Virus record (IMG/VR): IMGVR_UViG_3300008261_000179
Location: 1-21,983 of that record
Length of the DNA stretch: 21,983 nt
Origin: a virus
Direction: 5' to 3' (one strand)
Under the pieces are notes generated by a model. That model was not told the origin of the DNA. It saw only the letters and a program-made list of their open reading frames with translations, and made no database searches. Below, piece after piece: positions 1,520 through 21,983 of this stretch (the first letter of the stretch is position 1; each line of letters opens with the position of its first letter). The position numbers were made by a program, and so were the translations under genes.

Positions 1520-1553
1520 AGCACCACTTGCCGTGTGTCATCCTCGAATATCG

Positions 1554-1577
1554 GTGTGAAGAAAAGTTTGTTCACAC
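1554..1577. promoter_or_regulatory. inverted repeat in the divergent control region, candidate operator
   Basis: GTGTGAA (1554-1560) and TTCACAC (1571-1577) form a perfect 7-bp inverted repeat with a 10-nt centre. It lies between the leftward operon start (1519) and the rightward promoter at 1591-1619, where a repressor could control both. It could also form an RNA hairpin in a leader. No protein partner is identified. Confidence 0.4.
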
Positions 1578-1590
1578 GCAAAAGTTCCTG

Positions 1591-1619
1591 TTGACGGATG
1601 ATGGTCAGCGACCCATAAC
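1591..1619 (+). promoter_or_regulatory. promoter of the recombination operon
   Basis: TTGACG (1591-1596), 17-nt spacer, CATAAC (1614-1619), with the annealase ATG 20 nt further on. The same -35, exact spacer and -10 occur at 4024-4052 and on the other strand at 11096-11124, and all three have CCTsTTGAC at the -35. The recurrence at gene starts makes this stronger than a single match. Confidence 0.65.
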
Positions 1620-1638
1620 AGGTTCCGCACAACGCACT

Positions 1639-2472
1639 ATGTCCAACGACACCAACGGAGAAATCATCGAGGTCAACTCCAACCTCGCCAACGCTTCCAA
1701 CAGCGTGGGCATCTACAACAAAATCACCGACCCCATCCAAGCCATCGAGAAGATGGGCGAGATGATTTGGGCTTCTGGTATGTTCGGTTGCGTCAAGCCC
1801 GAACAGGGAATGGTTCTGGCGATGCAATGCCTCGCTGAAGGCAAGGCTCCGCTCGAACTCGCCAAGACCTACCACATCATCGAAGGCAAACTCACGATGC
1901 GTGCTGACGCTATGCTGGGTCGCTATCTGACCACGGGTGGCAAGGTGAAGTGGCTCGTCCGCTCCGACACCGAAGTCCGTGCCATCTGGAGCAAGGACGG
2001 CAACGATGTCGAAATCGCCTCCACGCTCGAAGAGTTCAAGAACAACGGCATCGCCCTCTCCGCCAAGGGTGGTCTCAAGGACAATTGGCGTAAGTTCCCG
2101 AAGCAGATGCTCACGGCTCGCAATGTCTCCGAAGCCGTCCGCCTGCTCGCTCCGCAAATCATCTCTGGCATCTACACACCCGAAGAGGTGTCCGACTTCT
2201 CCTCGCAGGACAAGCCCCTGCCGAAGCCCGTGGAATACCAGCGTATCGAGACCAAGCCCGAAGTCGTGGTTGACCCCGCACAGGCTGTCATCGCCCGTCT
2301 GGACGAAGTGCTGGCAAAGTATGAGCCTCACGCCAGCAACTACCTTATCGAGAAGAAACTGCTCCGTGAGGGGCAGACCTACAAGAATCTGGACGCTATG
2401 ACCGCCCAGCGAGTCCTCTCCAATCCTGCCAAGATTGTGGGCATCCTCGAAGGCATCGTGAACGCCTCTTGA
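1639..2472 (+). CDS. recT: RecT-like single-strand annealing protein
   Basis: 277 residues. RecT-family proteins coat single-stranded DNA and anneal complementary strands in phage recombination and replication. Residues about 150-185 contain a K-Q-M-L-x-A-R segment, then SEAVRLLAPQ and SGIYTPEEV, which matches the RecT signature of an Arg/Ala helix followed by a proline-containing loop and G-x-Y-x-x-E-E. The N-terminal half has a W-A-S-G-M-F helix and a strand-rich core. The start at 1639 is preferred over 1528 because it lies just after the promoter at 1591-1619 and gives MSNDTNGEII. The partner exonuclease follows immediately, the usual annealase-exonuclease pairing. The subfamily (RecT versus related annealases) is less certain. 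Confidence 0.8.
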   Translation: MSNDTNGEIIEVNSNLANASNSVGIYNKITDPIQAIEKMGEMIWASGMFGCVKPEQGMVLAMQCLAEGKAPLELAKTYHIIEGKLTMRADAMLGRYLTTGGKVKWLVRSDTEVRAIWSKDGNDVEIASTLEEFKNNGIALSAKGGLKDNWRKFPKQMLTARNVSEAVRLLAPQIISGIYTPEEVSDFSSQDKPLPKPVEYQRIETKPEVVVDPAQAVIARLDEVLAKYEPHASNYLIEKKLLREGQTYKNLDAMTAQRVLSNPAKIVGILEGIVNAS

Positions 2473-2479
2473 CAAGAGG
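2465..2479. promoter_or_regulatory. perfect palindrome over a -35-like element at the recT-like stop codon
   Basis: CCTCTTGACAAGAGG is a 7+1+7 perfect palindrome centred on the last base of the annealase stop codon. It includes TTGACA (2469-2474), 37 nt before the exonuclease ATG. CCTCTTGACAA also occurs at the promoter at 11096-11124 on the other strand. It may be an operator over a secondary promoter, although no CATAAC lies 17 nt downstream (the bases there are CACACC). Confidence 0.4.
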
Positions 2480-2510
2480 GCGAACCACGCACACACCAAT
2501 CGACACGACT

Positions 2511-3446
2511 ATGACCGATACCAATAACACACCCGCTCTCTCTACTGCTTTTGCCCTTGCCTCTGGCGGGAAGCAGGATGCCCCGTCCATCGCACAGGGG
2601 TCGTATGACAACATCCAAGCAGAGGACTACCATCGTATCCTTGGGCTTACGAAGAGTGGTCTGATGATGCTCCGCAAATCCCCCGCACACTTCTGGCATT
2701 GGATGACCTCTCCCGCAGAGGAGTCTACCAAGGCTATGTCCATCGGCACGGCTACGCACCTTGCGGTGTTTGAGCCTCACAAGTTCGCAGAAGAAATCGT
2801 GGTCGTCCCCGATGATGCCCCGAAGAAGCCGACCAAGGCACAGATGGAAGCCAAGAAGCCCTCGGAGGATGCCGTCTCCGCCATCGCTTGGTGGAAGGAT
2901 TTTTACTCCAAGAACGAGGGCAAGATTATCCTCTCGCAGGACGAGAACGCCCAAGTGCAAGGTATGGCTACGAGCGTCCGCTCGAACAAGGAAGTGGAGC
3001 CTTACCTCACCCACGCCTCCGCCAAGGTCGAAGTCTCTATCGTCTCGGTGGAGAAGGTGAACGGGCTGGACATCGTCTGCAAGGGTCGTGCCGACCTCAT
3101 CACGATGGACAACACAGTTATCTGTGACCTAAAAACTTGTGAGGACGCATCGGCTGACGGCTTCAACAAGAGTTTTATGCAGATGGGCTATTGGATGCAA
3201 GCCGCCCACTATGTCGCCATCTGCCGTAAGGCTGGTATCCCCATCCAGAAGTTCATCTTCATCGCCGCGGAAAAGAATCCGCCTTACTGCACGGCTCTTT
3301 ACGAGTTGGATGTAAACTCGATGGAGAAAGCGTTTGCAATCCGTCAGCGTCTGATGGAGAACCTCTCCGTCTGTATCGCCAACAACGATTTTCCTGTCCA
3401 CACCAAGGGCGTGACGCAGTTCACGCTCCCTCCGTGGATTAACTAA
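2511..3446 (+). CDS. PD-(D/E)XK exonuclease (RecE / exonuclease VIII-like)
   Basis: 311 residues. The expected role is resection of double-stranded DNA ends to give the single strands used by the neighbouring annealase. After a low-complexity N-terminus, residues about 45-90 read SGLMMLRKSPAHFWHW, then GTATHLAVFEPHKF, the opening motif of the RecE/PDDEXK exonuclease group. The catalytic core is G-R-A-D (D195) followed by DLKT (D206, K208), the D...D-x-K metal site. The final third contains AEKNPPY, typical of these enzymes. The ATG at 2511 is preferred to an upstream TTG at 2469 because it has the leader CACGACTATG, shared with two other genes here. There are 38 nt between the recT-like stop and this start. 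Confidence 0.85.
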   Translation: MTDTNNTPALSTAFALASGGKQDAPSIAQGSYDNIQAEDYHRILGLTKSGLMMLRKSPAHFWHWMTSPAEESTKAMSIGTATHLAVFEPHKFAEEIVVVPDDAPKKPTKAQMEAKKPSEDAVSAIAWWKDFYSKNEGKIILSQDENAQVQGMATSVRSNKEVEPYLTHASAKVEVSIVSVEKVNGLDIVCKGRADLITMDNTVICDLKTCEDASADGFNKSFMQMGYWMQAAHYVAICRKAGIPIQKFIFIAAEKNPPYCTALYELDVNSMEKAFAIRQRLMENLSVCIANNDFPVHTKGVTQFTLPPWIN

Positions 3447-7489: not shown

Positions 7490-8153
7490 CAACAAAAGAG
7501 ACGGAAGAGTAGCACGCTCCGAAGGCGTGCCATATGACCCCAGCAGGGGTAACGCCTTTTTTGATGTGATGGCTCTTACTACGGGCTTTAAAGGCGACCA
7601 GAAAACCGACTTGGAGAGTGTCGCATCGAAGTTGGAAAAGGGCTTGGGGAACTTGGATGAGGCGACCAAGACTCGTGTCTTTGACTCGTTCAAGTCTAAC
7701 GGACAGACGGGCTATTACCTTGATAAACCTACTGTGGACTTCGTAAAGGAACAAGCGGAGTTTGTCTGGGAGCGGAAACTGCAAGGGCCGTTCCGCTACC
7801 TTCGATACGAGTTCCCCGATGAGTTCAAGGAGTTCACGAAGGATTGGGCGTTCAGCAAGACCAGCACGACCCCCACAGTCGAGGCGAAAGGTAAGGACAT
7901 CTTTATGGATGCTATGGTTCGCAGGGTGTCCGCTCTAATCAACGGAGCAAGGGGAGGCTATGACGGCAAGTTAGCCATCAAGAACTACGAGCGTATGCAA
8001 CAATACGCCCCTTACGAATACCAAGCCAACCAAACCAAGAGTAGGGACTTCCAGACCGCAGTCACCAAGGCACTCAATGATGCCGTCTTCCTCACCAGAG
8101 AAATCGTCCTCGACCGAATGGAGAAGGTTCTCTACAAAGACGAGGGACGATAA
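7476..8153 (+). CDS. tagged cassette protein 4 (MARG...GRVARSE N-terminus), function unknown
   Basis: 225 residues starting MARGSNKRDGRVARSEGV. The tag matches proteins 1 and 3 in M-A-R-G and G-R-x-A-R-S-E, while the codons differ (GCG AGA versus GCA CGA), so selection is on the protein. The body is mixed helix with an aromatic, charged centre (VWERKLQGPFRYLRYEFPDEFKEF, region about 92-117) and a helical C-terminus. I recognise no domain. The first 14 nt overlap the HNH gene, and the next tagged gene starts 3 nt after the stop. Confidence 0.75.
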   Translation: MARGSNKRDGRVARSEGVPYDPSRGNAFFDVMALTTGFKGDQKTDLESVASKLEKGLGNLDEATKTRVFDSFKSNGQTGYYLDKPTVDFVKEQAEFVWERKLQGPFRYLRYEFPDEFKEFTKDWAFSKTSTTPTVEAKGKDIFMDAMVRRVSALINGARGGYDGKLAIKNYERMQQYAPYEYQANQTKSRDFQTAVTKALNDAVFLTREIVLDRMEKVLYKDEGR

Positions 8154-18824: not shown

Positions 18825-19607
18825 ATGGCACAACAGAATGAGATAGCAGCGGCACTTGGGTTGACCAAGGGGCGGGTGTCGCAACTCGTAAAGGAGGGTA
18901 TGCCAACGACCTCGATTGAAGAGGCTCGTGCTTGGCGAGACTCCCGTAGGACGGAGATGCAAAACAGGGGGCATATTAGCCAGCCCGTCCAGCCGTTGAA
19001 CTTGAGTGGGTTGGACTCCATTTTGCAGTCGGTCACGGGGGAGACGGGTAACTCGGAAATGGATACCCGTGTTAACGAGCAGACGGAGTTGTGCCGTTTG
19101 ACGAGGCAGGTGTTTATGCAGGCGTTGCAGTCGGGCGACCCAGCACAGGGGAAGTTGTATGCGAACTACGACAGGGCGGTGGCTACCCTACTGCGGTTGG
19201 AGAAGGAAAGATTTGTCCGTATCCAAGAGGAGGGTAAGTTGATTGATGCGGAGGCAGCAGCAGCGAGGTTCAGCAAAGTTCTGTCGCAACTGCGGAGCCA
19301 GATTGAGCGAGCGGAACTGACCTTCGCCCCGAAGGCTAACCCCGACAATCCGAGCAAAGCCCTCAAGGCATATCGGGAGTTCAAGGAGGATGTGTTTCGG
19401 AAGATAGCGGAATACAGCCCGATGGTGCGAGATGGTTCACCCCAGATTGGGGACGACACGATTGGCATCAAGCCCCCGAACAGCCCCCTGTCGCATCTCT
19501 TCCCCACAGTAGGAGACTTGGAAGACGACCCCACTCCCAAGGGTGGAGGGTCTCTGGAAGACTTCACGGACGATGCCCTCGATGAGATGGGAGACGAAGA
19601 CCAATGA
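18825..19607 (+). CDS. terS: terminase small subunit
   Basis: 260 residues. The N-terminus EIAAALGLTKGRVSQLVKEG (about 6-25) is a winged or simple helix-turn-helix as in Nu1-type small terminases, which recognise the packaging site. A long helical centre (about 75-170, with RLTRQVFMQALQSG and ARFSKVLSQLRSQIERAEL) would mediate oligomerisation. The C-terminus is acidic (LEDFTDDALDEMGDEDQ) and probably docks the large subunit. The gene overlaps the large-subunit gene as ATGA. The identification depends on this neighbour; the long acidic tail is unusual but not unique. Two CATAAA copies lie just upstream, too close to the start for a promoter of the usual type. Confidence 0.75.
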   Translation: MAQQNEIAAALGLTKGRVSQLVKEGMPTTSIEEARAWRDSRRTEMQNRGHISQPVQPLNLSGLDSILQSVTGETGNSEMDTRVNEQTELCRLTRQVFMQALQSGDPAQGKLYANYDRAVATLLRLEKERFVRIQEEGKLIDAEAAAARFSKVLSQLRSQIERAELTFAPKANPDNPSKALKAYREFKEDVFRKIAEYSPMVRDGSPQIGDDTIGIKPPNSPLSHLFPTVGDLEDDPTPKGGGSLEDFTDDALDEMGDEDQ

Positions 19608-21472
19608 CCCCCGCCCAGAAAGAGGCTATTGCCGACCAACTCGAAGCCCGCATTCGCAAGGTGTTCAAGCCCGATGAGGGTGGCGACATCGTGGCGTGGC
19701 TGGAGGCGAACATCCGCCAGATTCCTTTCTCCCCGATGCCGTCTGGGTTTCGGGTGTCGGAGACTCCGTGGTTGGCGGAACCCCTACGGGCGTATGCTGA
19801 CCCAGAGGTTAGATTAGCGGTTACCATTGCCCCGATTCAGTCGGGCAAGTCGTTAGCCGCCGAGATGCTGTCGTGCTTCATCATAGCCCGTCAACCAGCC
19901 CCGACTCTCTACCTCAATGACACGGACGATAATGCGGGCGATTGGATGCAGAGTCGTTTGAAGATTCTGTGGGAGAATGTGCCACCTGTCCTATCCAAGT
20001 TATCGAAGGACGAGACGGGGAAGAAGGGTAACGGAACTGTGCAGACGGAGGATATGACCTTCTGGTGCTTGGGTGCGTATAACGAGAAGAACCTCCAGCG
20101 ACGAAGCATTAGGTGGCTGGTCGGTGACGAGACTTGGTTATGGCCACAAGGGCATATGGCGGAAGCCTCCGCCCGTGTGACCTCCTTCGGCTGGATGGGG
20201 AAGCGAATCTTTATGTCGCAGGGGTCGTTCGTTGGGGACGACACCGAGGGTGTCTGGAACACGACCGACAAGCGGGTCTGGTCGTTTGCCTGCCCCGACT
20301 GTGGTCATAGGCAACCTTGGAATTGGGAGCAGGTCAAGATACCCGATGCCCAGATGTCCGATGGCGAATACGACTTCAACCACATCCGCAAGGAGACCAA
20401 GTATGAGTGCGAGGGATGCAAGAAGCGGTTTGACGATACGAGGTCTAACCGAGACGACTTCAACGCCCGTGGGTTCTACGCCATAACCAATCCGCTGGCA
20501 GACCCAGCGAACCACGGCTACACTTGGAGCGGTCTTGCGGCACGCTCGTGGGGCGTGATGGCGGAGATGTATGTCCGTGCGAAACTTGCCCTCGAAGTAA
20601 ACGGGGACTCGAAGCCCCTTCAGATTTTTCGCCAGAAGCAGTTGGCACAATTCTGGTCGGACGCACCCGATGACTTTGGTTCACTCGCCACGATTGGCGA
20701 TTACAAGATGACGGAGGATTGGGACAAGGAAGCCCGCATCGACCCAGCGACACGCAAACTACACACCGACCACAAACGGGAGAAGCAAATCCGTGCTAGG
20801 TTTATGACAGTCGATGTGCAGAGAGAAGGCTTCTTCTGTCTCGTGCGAGGATGGGCTGAAGGCGGAGACAGTCGTCTTGTGAAATGGCGTTATGTGCAGA
20901 CTTGGGAGGATGTGGTCAATATGGGCAAGGCGTTGGAGGTTCACCCCGCTCTGACATATGTAGACTGCGGTGACCAATTCGATGATGTTATTAGGCAATG
21001 CGGTATCAACAAATGGACAGCGTTGCGTGGTGACCAGCGATACGAGTTCACTTGGATGATTGAAACATCGAAGGGGCGTAAGCCCGTGGGCAAAGTGTAT
21101 TCACCGAGACGATTGGTGAATGTCGGAACAGGCCCCGTGAGCGTGCATCACTTTTCCAACTTGGCTCTGAAAGACCAACTCTCCCGTATGCGGAAGATTG
21201 GTAAGCACACAGTCGCCAGCGATGCTGGGCAGGACTATCTCGACCAGATGGAATCGGAAGTCCGCACGAAGTCTCCCGCTACGGGCAAGCCCGAATGGAA
21301 GCGGATTGGTAAGCGAGCGAATCACTTGTGGGACTGCGAGGTGATGCAGTTTGTGCCCGCCTTGGCGTTTGGATTCCTCGCCCCTCCTCCGCCTGCCCCT
21401 CCAGAGGAAAAGCCCGCAGAAGCCCAGCCAGAGGCTCCCCCTGCCCCAGAGGGTAAAATGCCCTCCGAGTAG
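19604..21472 (+). CDS. terL: terminase large subunit, lambda GpA-like
   Basis: 622 residues. It is the ATPase-nuclease that cuts concatemers and pumps DNA into proheads. ATPase domain: APIQSGKS (76-83, a variant Walker A), YLNDTDDNA near 103-111, and Walker B WLVGDE (D175, E176). A zinc ribbon follows with C230-x-x-C233 and C269-x-x-C272, characteristic of the GpA family. The nuclease domain has F-M-T-V-D404-V-Q, Y-V-D454-C-G-D and L-W-D577-C-E, the expected RNase H-like acids. The C-terminal 28 residues are Pro/Ala/Glu-rich. Start and stop are firm. GpA-type terminases usually produce cohesive ends. Portal and head genes would be expected next, but a terminator and a non-coding region follow instead. 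Confidence 0.95.
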   Translation: MTPAQKEAIADQLEARIRKVFKPDEGGDIVAWLEANIRQIPFSPMPSGFRVSETPWLAEPLRAYADPEVRLAVTIAPIQSGKSLAAEMLSCFIIARQPAPTLYLNDTDDNAGDWMQSRLKILWENVPPVLSKLSKDETGKKGNGTVQTEDMTFWCLGAYNEKNLQRRSIRWLVGDETWLWPQGHMAEASARVTSFGWMGKRIFMSQGSFVGDDTEGVWNTTDKRVWSFACPDCGHRQPWNWEQVKIPDAQMSDGEYDFNHIRKETKYECEGCKKRFDDTRSNRDDFNARGFYAITNPLADPANHGYTWSGLAARSWGVMAEMYVRAKLALEVNGDSKPLQIFRQKQLAQFWSDAPDDFGSLATIGDYKMTEDWDKEARIDPATRKLHTDHKREKQIRARFMTVDVQREGFFCLVRGWAEGGDSRLVKWRYVQTWEDVVNMGKALEVHPALTYVDCGDQFDDVIRQCGINKWTALRGDQRYEFTWMIETSKGRKPVGKVYSPRRLVNVGTGPVSVHHFSNLALKDQLSRMRKIGKHTVASDAGQDYLDQMESEVRTKSPATGKPEWKRIGKRANHLWDCEVMQFVPALAFGFLAPPPPAPPEEKPAEAQPEAPPAPEGKMPSE

Positions 21473-21488: not shown

Positions 21489-21508
21489 TTTCTGCTCATA
21501 GGCAGAAA
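21489..21508. other. short hairpin after terL
   Basis: TTTCTGC (21489-21495) pairs with GCAGAAA (21502-21508) around a 6-nt loop. There is no U-tract on the plus strand, so it may protect the 3' end or assist the terminator just downstream. Confidence 0.4.
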
Positions 21509-21515
21509 AAAATGA

Positions 21516-21574
21516 TTCAGAAAACCCAATGTTTACAGGGGGTTTATGACTTTCTGAAAGATTTTTGTTTTTTT
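21516..21574 (+). terminator. Rho-independent terminator after terL
   Basis: TTCAGAAA (21516-21523) pairs with TTTCTGAA (21551-21558), with an inner ACCC/GGGT pairing, and is followed by TTTTTG and TTTTTTT (21562-21574). It ends the terS-terL transcript and so implies that what follows is transcribed separately. Confidence 0.7.
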
Positions 21575-21577
21575 CGC

Positions 21578-21604
21578 TTGTCAAACCCTTGGGTATAGTA
21601 TCTA
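21578..21604 (+). promoter_or_regulatory. possible promoter for the structured RNA
   Basis: TTGTCA (21578-21583) with TATCTA (21599-21604) after a 15-nt spacer, just after the terminator. Spacing is shorter than the phage's other promoters and the sequences differ from CATAAC, so this is tentative. Confidence 0.35.
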
Positions 21605-21609
21605 CTTCT

Positions 21610-21983
21610 CTCATCAGGGTTAACTACCCTCTGTTCTTTGAGTCGCCCGATAAATCTACCTTAAGTCCTCTGCAACAAGCAGGGGCTGTGAACCACGACC
21701 GAGGCTAACAACGGCAACGAGCGTGAGCGAAAAGGCTAAAGGCGACTCTCCAATTTCCGCAAGGTGTCCGTAAGACGGACGGAGTATCAGAAGGGGCTGG
21801 GGCGTGGTAACACGCTCTACAAAATGAAACAATCCCTTCCTCCAGAACCAACCCTTGTGAACTTTATGCGGTGTGTGGGACTGACCCCACCTGTGCAACC
21901 CGTCCGTGTGACGGGGGCTGGTAATCAAACCAGCCACACCGCTCCTCTTTCAGTTCTTTGACATCATCTCGTAAGTCGCCTCT
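21610..21983 (+). ncRNA. candidate large structured non-coding RNA
   Basis: No convincing gene is present. Perfect complementary segments are dense: GAGTCGCC (21640-21647) with GGCGACTC (21741-21748) enclosing a hairpin CCTCTGC/GCAGGGG (21667-21685); GTCCG/CGGAC (21766-21780); GAAGGG (21790-21795) with CCCTTC (21834-21839) enclosing GCGTG-GTAA-CACGC (21802-21815, a GNRA loop); and GCGGTGTG (21868-21875) with CACACCGC (21935-21942) enclosing three further hairpins, GTGGG/CCCAC, CCCGTC/GACGGG and GGCTGG/CCAGCC. The order of nested helices and junctions is that of an ornate RNA. Both ends are uncertain, and the right end may lie beyond the window. Identity (for example with GOLLD- or ROOL-type phage RNAs) cannot be judged without a covariance search. 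Confidence 0.6.

Follow-up and report, generated by a model that had tools for sequence, protein, structure and literature searches.

The RNA array at the end of the contig

What is encoded at the very end of the virus contig IMGVR_UViG_3300008261_000179, downstream of its terminase gene, where abundant pairing potential had led an initial annotation to propose one large structured RNA? The contig was analysed over its full length of 21,983 nucleotides (the window) and compared with viral relatives, which are labelled L002, L003 and so on below. Positions 21610-21983 comprise three RNA modules, termed M1, M2 and M3, together with the truncated beginning of another, M4, all belonging to a modular non-coding RNA array. 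The virus record ends at 21983 and the RNA element runs off that end, so that the window holds only the 5' part of a larger array. Phages usually give little of their genome to long untranslated sequence; the phages bearing this array reserve a stretch of 2-3 kb, in a constant position, for folded RNAs, most of which lie outside any known family. We consider it probable that the stretch represents the 5' end of a phage stable-RNA operon, whose transcription involves rRNA-style antitermination and whose transcript is cleaved into individual RNAs. The features of the locus are:

19604-21472, + strand: TerL gene of the GpA family, upstream neighbour of the array (Pfam GpA_ATPase, 8.6e-31, and GpA_nuclease, 7.7e-18; PHROG 15)
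21500-21579, + strand: terminator-like A/T-rich stem-loop and T run 3' of TerL (fold z -3.07, inverted repeat I1)
21578-21604, + strand: promoter-like region with TTGTCA at 21578-21583 and no clear -10 box (inferred from sequence comparison only)
21616-21630, + strand: leader hairpin AGGGT-TAACT-ACCCT (comparison with relatives, fold)
21633-21641, + strand: first copy of a boxA-like site, GTTCTTTGA (core shared with a Verrucomicrobium sp. BvORR106 spacer)
21640-21748, + strand: M1, a closing helix, two hairpins and the conserved core CTACCNTAAGTC...GTGAACCAC...GTGAGCGAAAAG (12 loci, covariation, model R1)
21758-21859, + strand: M2, a closing helix CGCAAGG/CCTTGTG, one hairpin and a long irregular stem with a GNRA cap at 21802-21815 (4 loci)
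21868-21942, + strand: M3, a four-helix cloverleaf without tRNA sequence features, with conserved single strands ACTGACC and of the CTGTGCAA type (12 loci)
21943-21961, + strand: linker TCCTCTTTCAGTTCTTTGA with a second boxA-like copy at 21953-21961 (repeat scan, core comparison)
21962-21983, + strand: 5' arm of M4 (CATCATCTCG...), truncated where the contig stops (comparison with L003)

A TerL search recovered 18 viral contigs at 66-95% identity, to which a TerL profile added more at 66-70%. In these relatives the array lies between the TerL and portal genes, the latter being recognised in L003, and in close relatives the sequence 3' of TerL, which has few long open frames, spans about 2-2.9 kb in complete arrays, the short array of L013 measuring about 0.4 kb. 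The units are folded RNAs joined by short linkers of the form CACTTT, CTCTTT or AACTTT, which are often directly followed by GTTCTTTGACATT, and beyond further modules they include true tRNAs and tRNA-like RNAs. M4 is complete in L003 (7247-7540), where it has a 10-bp closing helix with the 3' strand CGAGATGATG.

M1, M2 and M3 define three new RNA families

For 21604-21983 the folding energy is -133.6 kcal/mol, whereas dinucleotide shuffles average -111.6 (sd 6.7); the z-score is -3.3, and none of 100 shuffles folds as well. Folded singly against 200 shuffles, the modules give z -4.0 (21636-21752), -3.8 (21752-21862) and -4.2 (21866-21944), the signal being stronger for the three domains apart than for the stretch as a whole; unsupervised minimum-energy segmentation of the arrays did not separate the modules cleanly. 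The individual helices described in the initial annotation are borne out: a repeat scan recovered both perfect 8-bp helices (21640-21647 with 21741-21748 and 21868-21875 with 21935-21942), and the 6-bp helix GAAGGG/CCCTTC (21790-21795 with 21834-21839) and the GUAA-capped GNRA hairpin GCGTG-GTAA-CACGC (21802-21815) are found in the sequence and also form in the minimum-energy fold. The terminator that it had placed upstream is plausible, a long A/T stem-loop being followed by TTTTTGTTTTTTT (fold z -3.1).

M1 is found in 12 distinct arrays, near the start of each, and its fold is kept in all 12 through compensatory changes: the closing helix is GAGTCGCC/GGCGACTC in the window, TCTAGCAC/GTGCTAGA in L017 and GTTTCGGC/GCCGAAAC in L019, and the core is nearly invariant. 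In the M1 alignment (A2, a sequence-based MAFFT alignment from which the M1 structure was itself derived), 18 of 24 pairs have changed on both sides, compared with a shuffle mean of 7.1 and none of 500 shuffles reaching 18; 90.6% of the cells pair, a value that drops to about 40% when the partner is slid by one column. A pattern search with the M1 core returned the known arrays and contigs whose surrounding sequence does not resemble M1. The folds of M2 are much alike in its four loci, with compensatory changes in 11 of 20 pairs. For M3 they were seen in 15 of 23 pairs of an alignment of 12 loci (A6), which was fitted to the model and takes in one weak minus-strand match, in L002; its closing helix is imperfectly aligned between two subgroups. 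Slid-partner controls collapse for the compensatory signal of all three modules. The proposal of a conserved structured RNA is thus strongly supported by covariation, and we define M1, M2 and M3 as three new RNA families, two of them with searchable models. The cloverleaf of M3 is not that of a recognisable tRNA: ARAGORN and Rfam RF00005 detect no tRNA in the window, and a search for T-arms finds none there.

The suggestion of a new class holds insofar as no Rfam family matches the stretch. At the gathering score, the window and 14 relatives gave no GOLLD or ROOL match and only tRNAs, all in relatives; at permissive thresholds (up to E 10 for the window stretch, E 5 for two arrays) there was again no GOLLD or ROOL, but only sub-threshold noise and weak tmRNA matches. 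The suggested kinship with GOLLD or ROOL accordingly finds no recognisable match. Nor did we find a description of such an array in the literature.

Modular gain and loss of array units

Modules come and go at short ACUUU linkers among phages that are 91-95% identical in TerL. M2 is missing exactly between linkers in L002, L003 and L004, with flanks that are 92-96% identical, and the spacing between M1 and M3 is 119 nt in the window as against 10 nt in L003. The difference, 109 nt, is not divisible by three and so speaks against coding; on this ground, and because RNA structure explains the conservation, a protein-coding explanation of M1-M3 was rejected. On the 3' side of M3, M4 follows in the window and L003, and a different module in L002; the array of L018 is devoid of M1. 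Linker-based clustering sorts the segments into at least 16 recurrent families; the figure is approximate, as multi-module segments chain many others into one cluster. The linker pattern was found in 36 stretches of viral contigs, mostly in contigs with no other link to these phages, and most of the 36 are probably due to chance. That closely related phages swap modules in this way suggests that variety is selected for, much as it is in anti-defence islands.

More distant relatives (L042-L050) have a two-module version 3' of TerL, consisting of modules MA and MB, and MB is related to the module that ends the long arrays. In L043, L045, L049 and L050 the two modules are followed by a GC-rich hairpin, e.g. 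AAGGCAGGCC...GGCCTGCCTTATTT, and a T-rich tail. In two relatives the RNA array is interrupted by a conserved protein frame of 146-167 aa (L016 7178-7618, starting MSLNWNHTKVPKEH, and L017 2604-3107); no PHROG matches the L017 copy.

Taken as one large RNA the stretch was most likely misread. The structured part of that proposal stands and the single ornate RNA does not, since small modules are gained and lost independently and the helices belong to three separately inherited domains. The related idea that the entire array is a single long uncut functional RNA, a GOLLD- or ROOL-like scaffold or cage in which the modules are domains, appears unlikely to us. Such an RNA would accommodate an array that is continuous and on one strand, and also the tRNA lying inside a CCAAGTTTC/GAAACTTGG outer helix in L003 (~7570-7963), as tRNAs can occur in a GOLLD linker (PMC12286853), but it is at odds with the differing module content and order of close relatives, with a distant version that ends in a hairpin and T-rich tail after just two modules, with the missing Rfam match and with linkers that look suited to cleavage, their AC/UUU fitting the RNase E core RN/WUU, a specificity derived from Salmonella (PMC5222698). 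GOLLD and ROOL resemble the array in being phage-borne, located near tRNAs and extensively conserved in secondary structure (PMC12286853), with function unassigned in both; the array differs in consisting of many small independent modules rather than one RNA of several hundred nucleotides, and in its want of a sequence or model match.

Signals preceding and linking the modules

A sigma-70 scan of the window returned no promoter (no full match), and the putative start site is accordingly placed by a conserved TTGTCA-like box; in L014, L016 and L017 TATAAT- or TATACT-like boxes are seen at the promoter-like region. The leader position is occupied in most relatives by a hairpin of different sequence, which is not recognisable in L019. 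In a leader arm-swap pairing test the hairpins scored 0.92 with their own arms and 0.53 with swapped arms, the arms being hand-chosen and the test illustrative only. The leader hairpin and a boxA-like GUUCUUUGA precede M1, and the boxA-like core recurs in the linkers; the site is short, at 9-11 nt, and the core is not constant from linker to linker. The first copy resembles the boxA consensus GYTCTTTAANA (PMC5725501), which is gammaproteobacterial. The core of this copy is also seen in Verrucomicrobium sp. BvORR106 (L065, GGTTCTTTGAAAACTGAAC), a comparison that concerns the 16S-23S spacer of a genome whose 16S leader lies off the contig end and that presupposes the host assignment, itself inferred. 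BoxA recruits NusB/E against Rho (PMC5725501) and is described in PMC4807359 as binding NusB/NusE and as thought to counter Rho.

The same arrangement might be explained by a cis-acting leader, with M1-M3 as a put-like or riboswitch-like antitermination or regulatory element for the downstream head genes. We hold this to be quite improbable: M1 does come first after the leader where it is present, with boxA adjoining, but L018 dispenses with it, the array goes on for kilobases, the small versions end in a terminator-like hairpin ahead of the next gene, and the tRNA members have no need of a role in cis.

Host and genomic distribution

Based on TerL comparisons, the array-bearing phages probably infect Verrucomicrobiota: the nearest cellular TerLs are mostly from this phylum, with 42% identity in Verrucomicrobium sp. 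BvORR106, and matches to the TerL family occur in 27 of 388 genomes of the phylum, 11 of the 27 being below 1e-100. Among GenBank phages there is no close TerL (best about 24% identity), and a DNA search of the GenBank phage collection gave nothing for the window or L003; the matches listed for L018 are tRNA genes. The M3 model found no match in the 388 Verrucomicrobiota genomes, a set that holds no positive control. Five readable Verrucomicrobiota prophage loci, three others having been left out as no + strand TerL frame was found, have no array 3' of TerL and instead a short ORF or unrelated sequence.

A packaging role, raised earlier from the location, is scarcely credible, be it for a DNA-packaging RNA or for a packaging (cos/pac) DNA site beside the terminase gene: the position directly 3' of TerL and 5' of the portal gene is as claimed, but prophages with the same TerL family have no array there, the content varies by whole modules, tRNAs included, a DNA site has no need of RNA-type compensatory stems, and the whole Rfam library gives no phi29-type pRNA match in the window.

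tRNAs and tRNA-like RNAs in the arrays of relatives

The window stops short of any tRNA, and the evidence on tRNAs and tRNA-like RNAs comes entirely from relatives. Rfam RF00005 identifies tRNAs in L018 (two), L013, L007 and L009 at the gathering score among 14 relatives. T-arms, sought as a tRNA T-loop on a stem of 5 bp, number 40 in 35.7 kb of arrays, true tRNAs included; shuffles lead one to expect 0.2, and the 194 kb that flank the arrays contain one. Many of these T-arms have a matching 7-nt acceptor strand, giving units approximately 106-221 nt long; in some, ACCA is encoded at the 3' end. One slot, captured in alignment A8, holds tRNA-Phe in L007 and L009 and expanded tRNA-like RNAs in eight other phages; the latter have the acceptor, D-arm and T-arm as in tRNA-Phe, with about 75-145 extra nucleotides replacing the anticodon arm (roughly 50-150 nt across the tRNA-like RNAs overall), and the replacements carry conserved sequence of their own. 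Such slots, where one phage has a tRNA and another a tRNA body bearing a different domain, offer a direct route to the purpose of phage tRNAs and their mimics.

Examples of about 110-150 nt with a 7-bp acceptor, T-arm and encoded ACCA, and without a normal anticodon arm, are L017 4342-4450, L011 7837-7966 and L009 7633-7781. As at L003 ~7570-7963, a tRNA or tRNA-like unit is nested in a larger fold with a CCAAGTTTC/GAAACTTGG-type outer helix at L007 7365-7610. Weak similarity to tmRNA was detected in two tRNA-like units of L017, in one case at E 7.8e-5 and 18.6 bits (cut-off 47). Like tmRNA and viral tRNA-like structures, these RNAs combine an acceptor and T-arm with a replaced anticodon domain; they differ in keeping the D-arm in the aligned slot, and the L017 match is below the gathering score.

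The missing normal anticodon arms could recall a decaying tRNA cluster with degenerate remains and chance folds, but this is highly improbable, as compensatory changes and invariant core sequences point to purifying selection on structure and the replacement arms have conserved sequence of their own.

A proposed stable-RNA operon and its possible functions

In bacteriophage T4, tRNAs and the stable RNAs C and D lie in one region, from which a polycistronic transcript is processed into units. The array is similar in combining tRNAs with other structured RNAs, which in relatives share one array on one strand, as is characteristic of a stable-RNA operon, and it would be processed likewise; it differs from T4-type clusters in that non-tRNA modules are the majority, drawn from the segment families counted above, and in having rRNA-type boxA cores in the linkers and tRNA-like RNAs with replaced anticodon arms. 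With rRNA operons, which have boxB-boxA leaders, spacer tRNAs and spacer boxA, it shares a leader hairpin followed by a boxA-like core, the repetition of this core and the tRNAs; unlike them it has no ribosomal RNA, and its boxA is identified from sequence only.

We propose that in this stable-RNA operon the leader hairpin and boxA-like site would, as in rRNA leaders, enable host RNA polymerase and Nus factors to continue, without being stopped by Rho, through 2-3 kb of highly folded RNA that is not translated. RNase E, or an enzyme equivalent to it, may then cut this precursor at its ACUUU linkers, which are single-stranded, into compact separate RNAs, of which M1, M2 and M3 would be the first three released, and the tRNAs and tRNA-like RNAs would be finished by RNase P and CCA addition. 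The resulting set could constitute an exchangeable accessory repertoire. Our most likely guess is that this repertoire would target host translation or tRNA handling, by way of replacement tRNAs, tRNA mimics or anti-defence decoys. For M1-M3 such a role is suggested by the tRNAs and tRNA mimics that neighbour them in relatives and by reports (PMC10264068, PMC11555353) that phage tRNAs evade tRNA-targeting defences; as M1-M3 themselves have no tRNA features, it would be guilt by association. More tentatively, the array may be a phage locus of a new kind, an exchangeable cassette system of many unrelated small structured RNAs and anticodon-less tRNA mimics behind an rRNA-like antitermination leader, which would act as an RNA counterpart of accessory anti-defence islands. 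Elsewhere in the window (1528-3446), a gene for a RecT-like annealing protein adjoins one for an exonuclease VIII-like PDDEXK protein; the two form a recombination pair and could contribute to module exchange.
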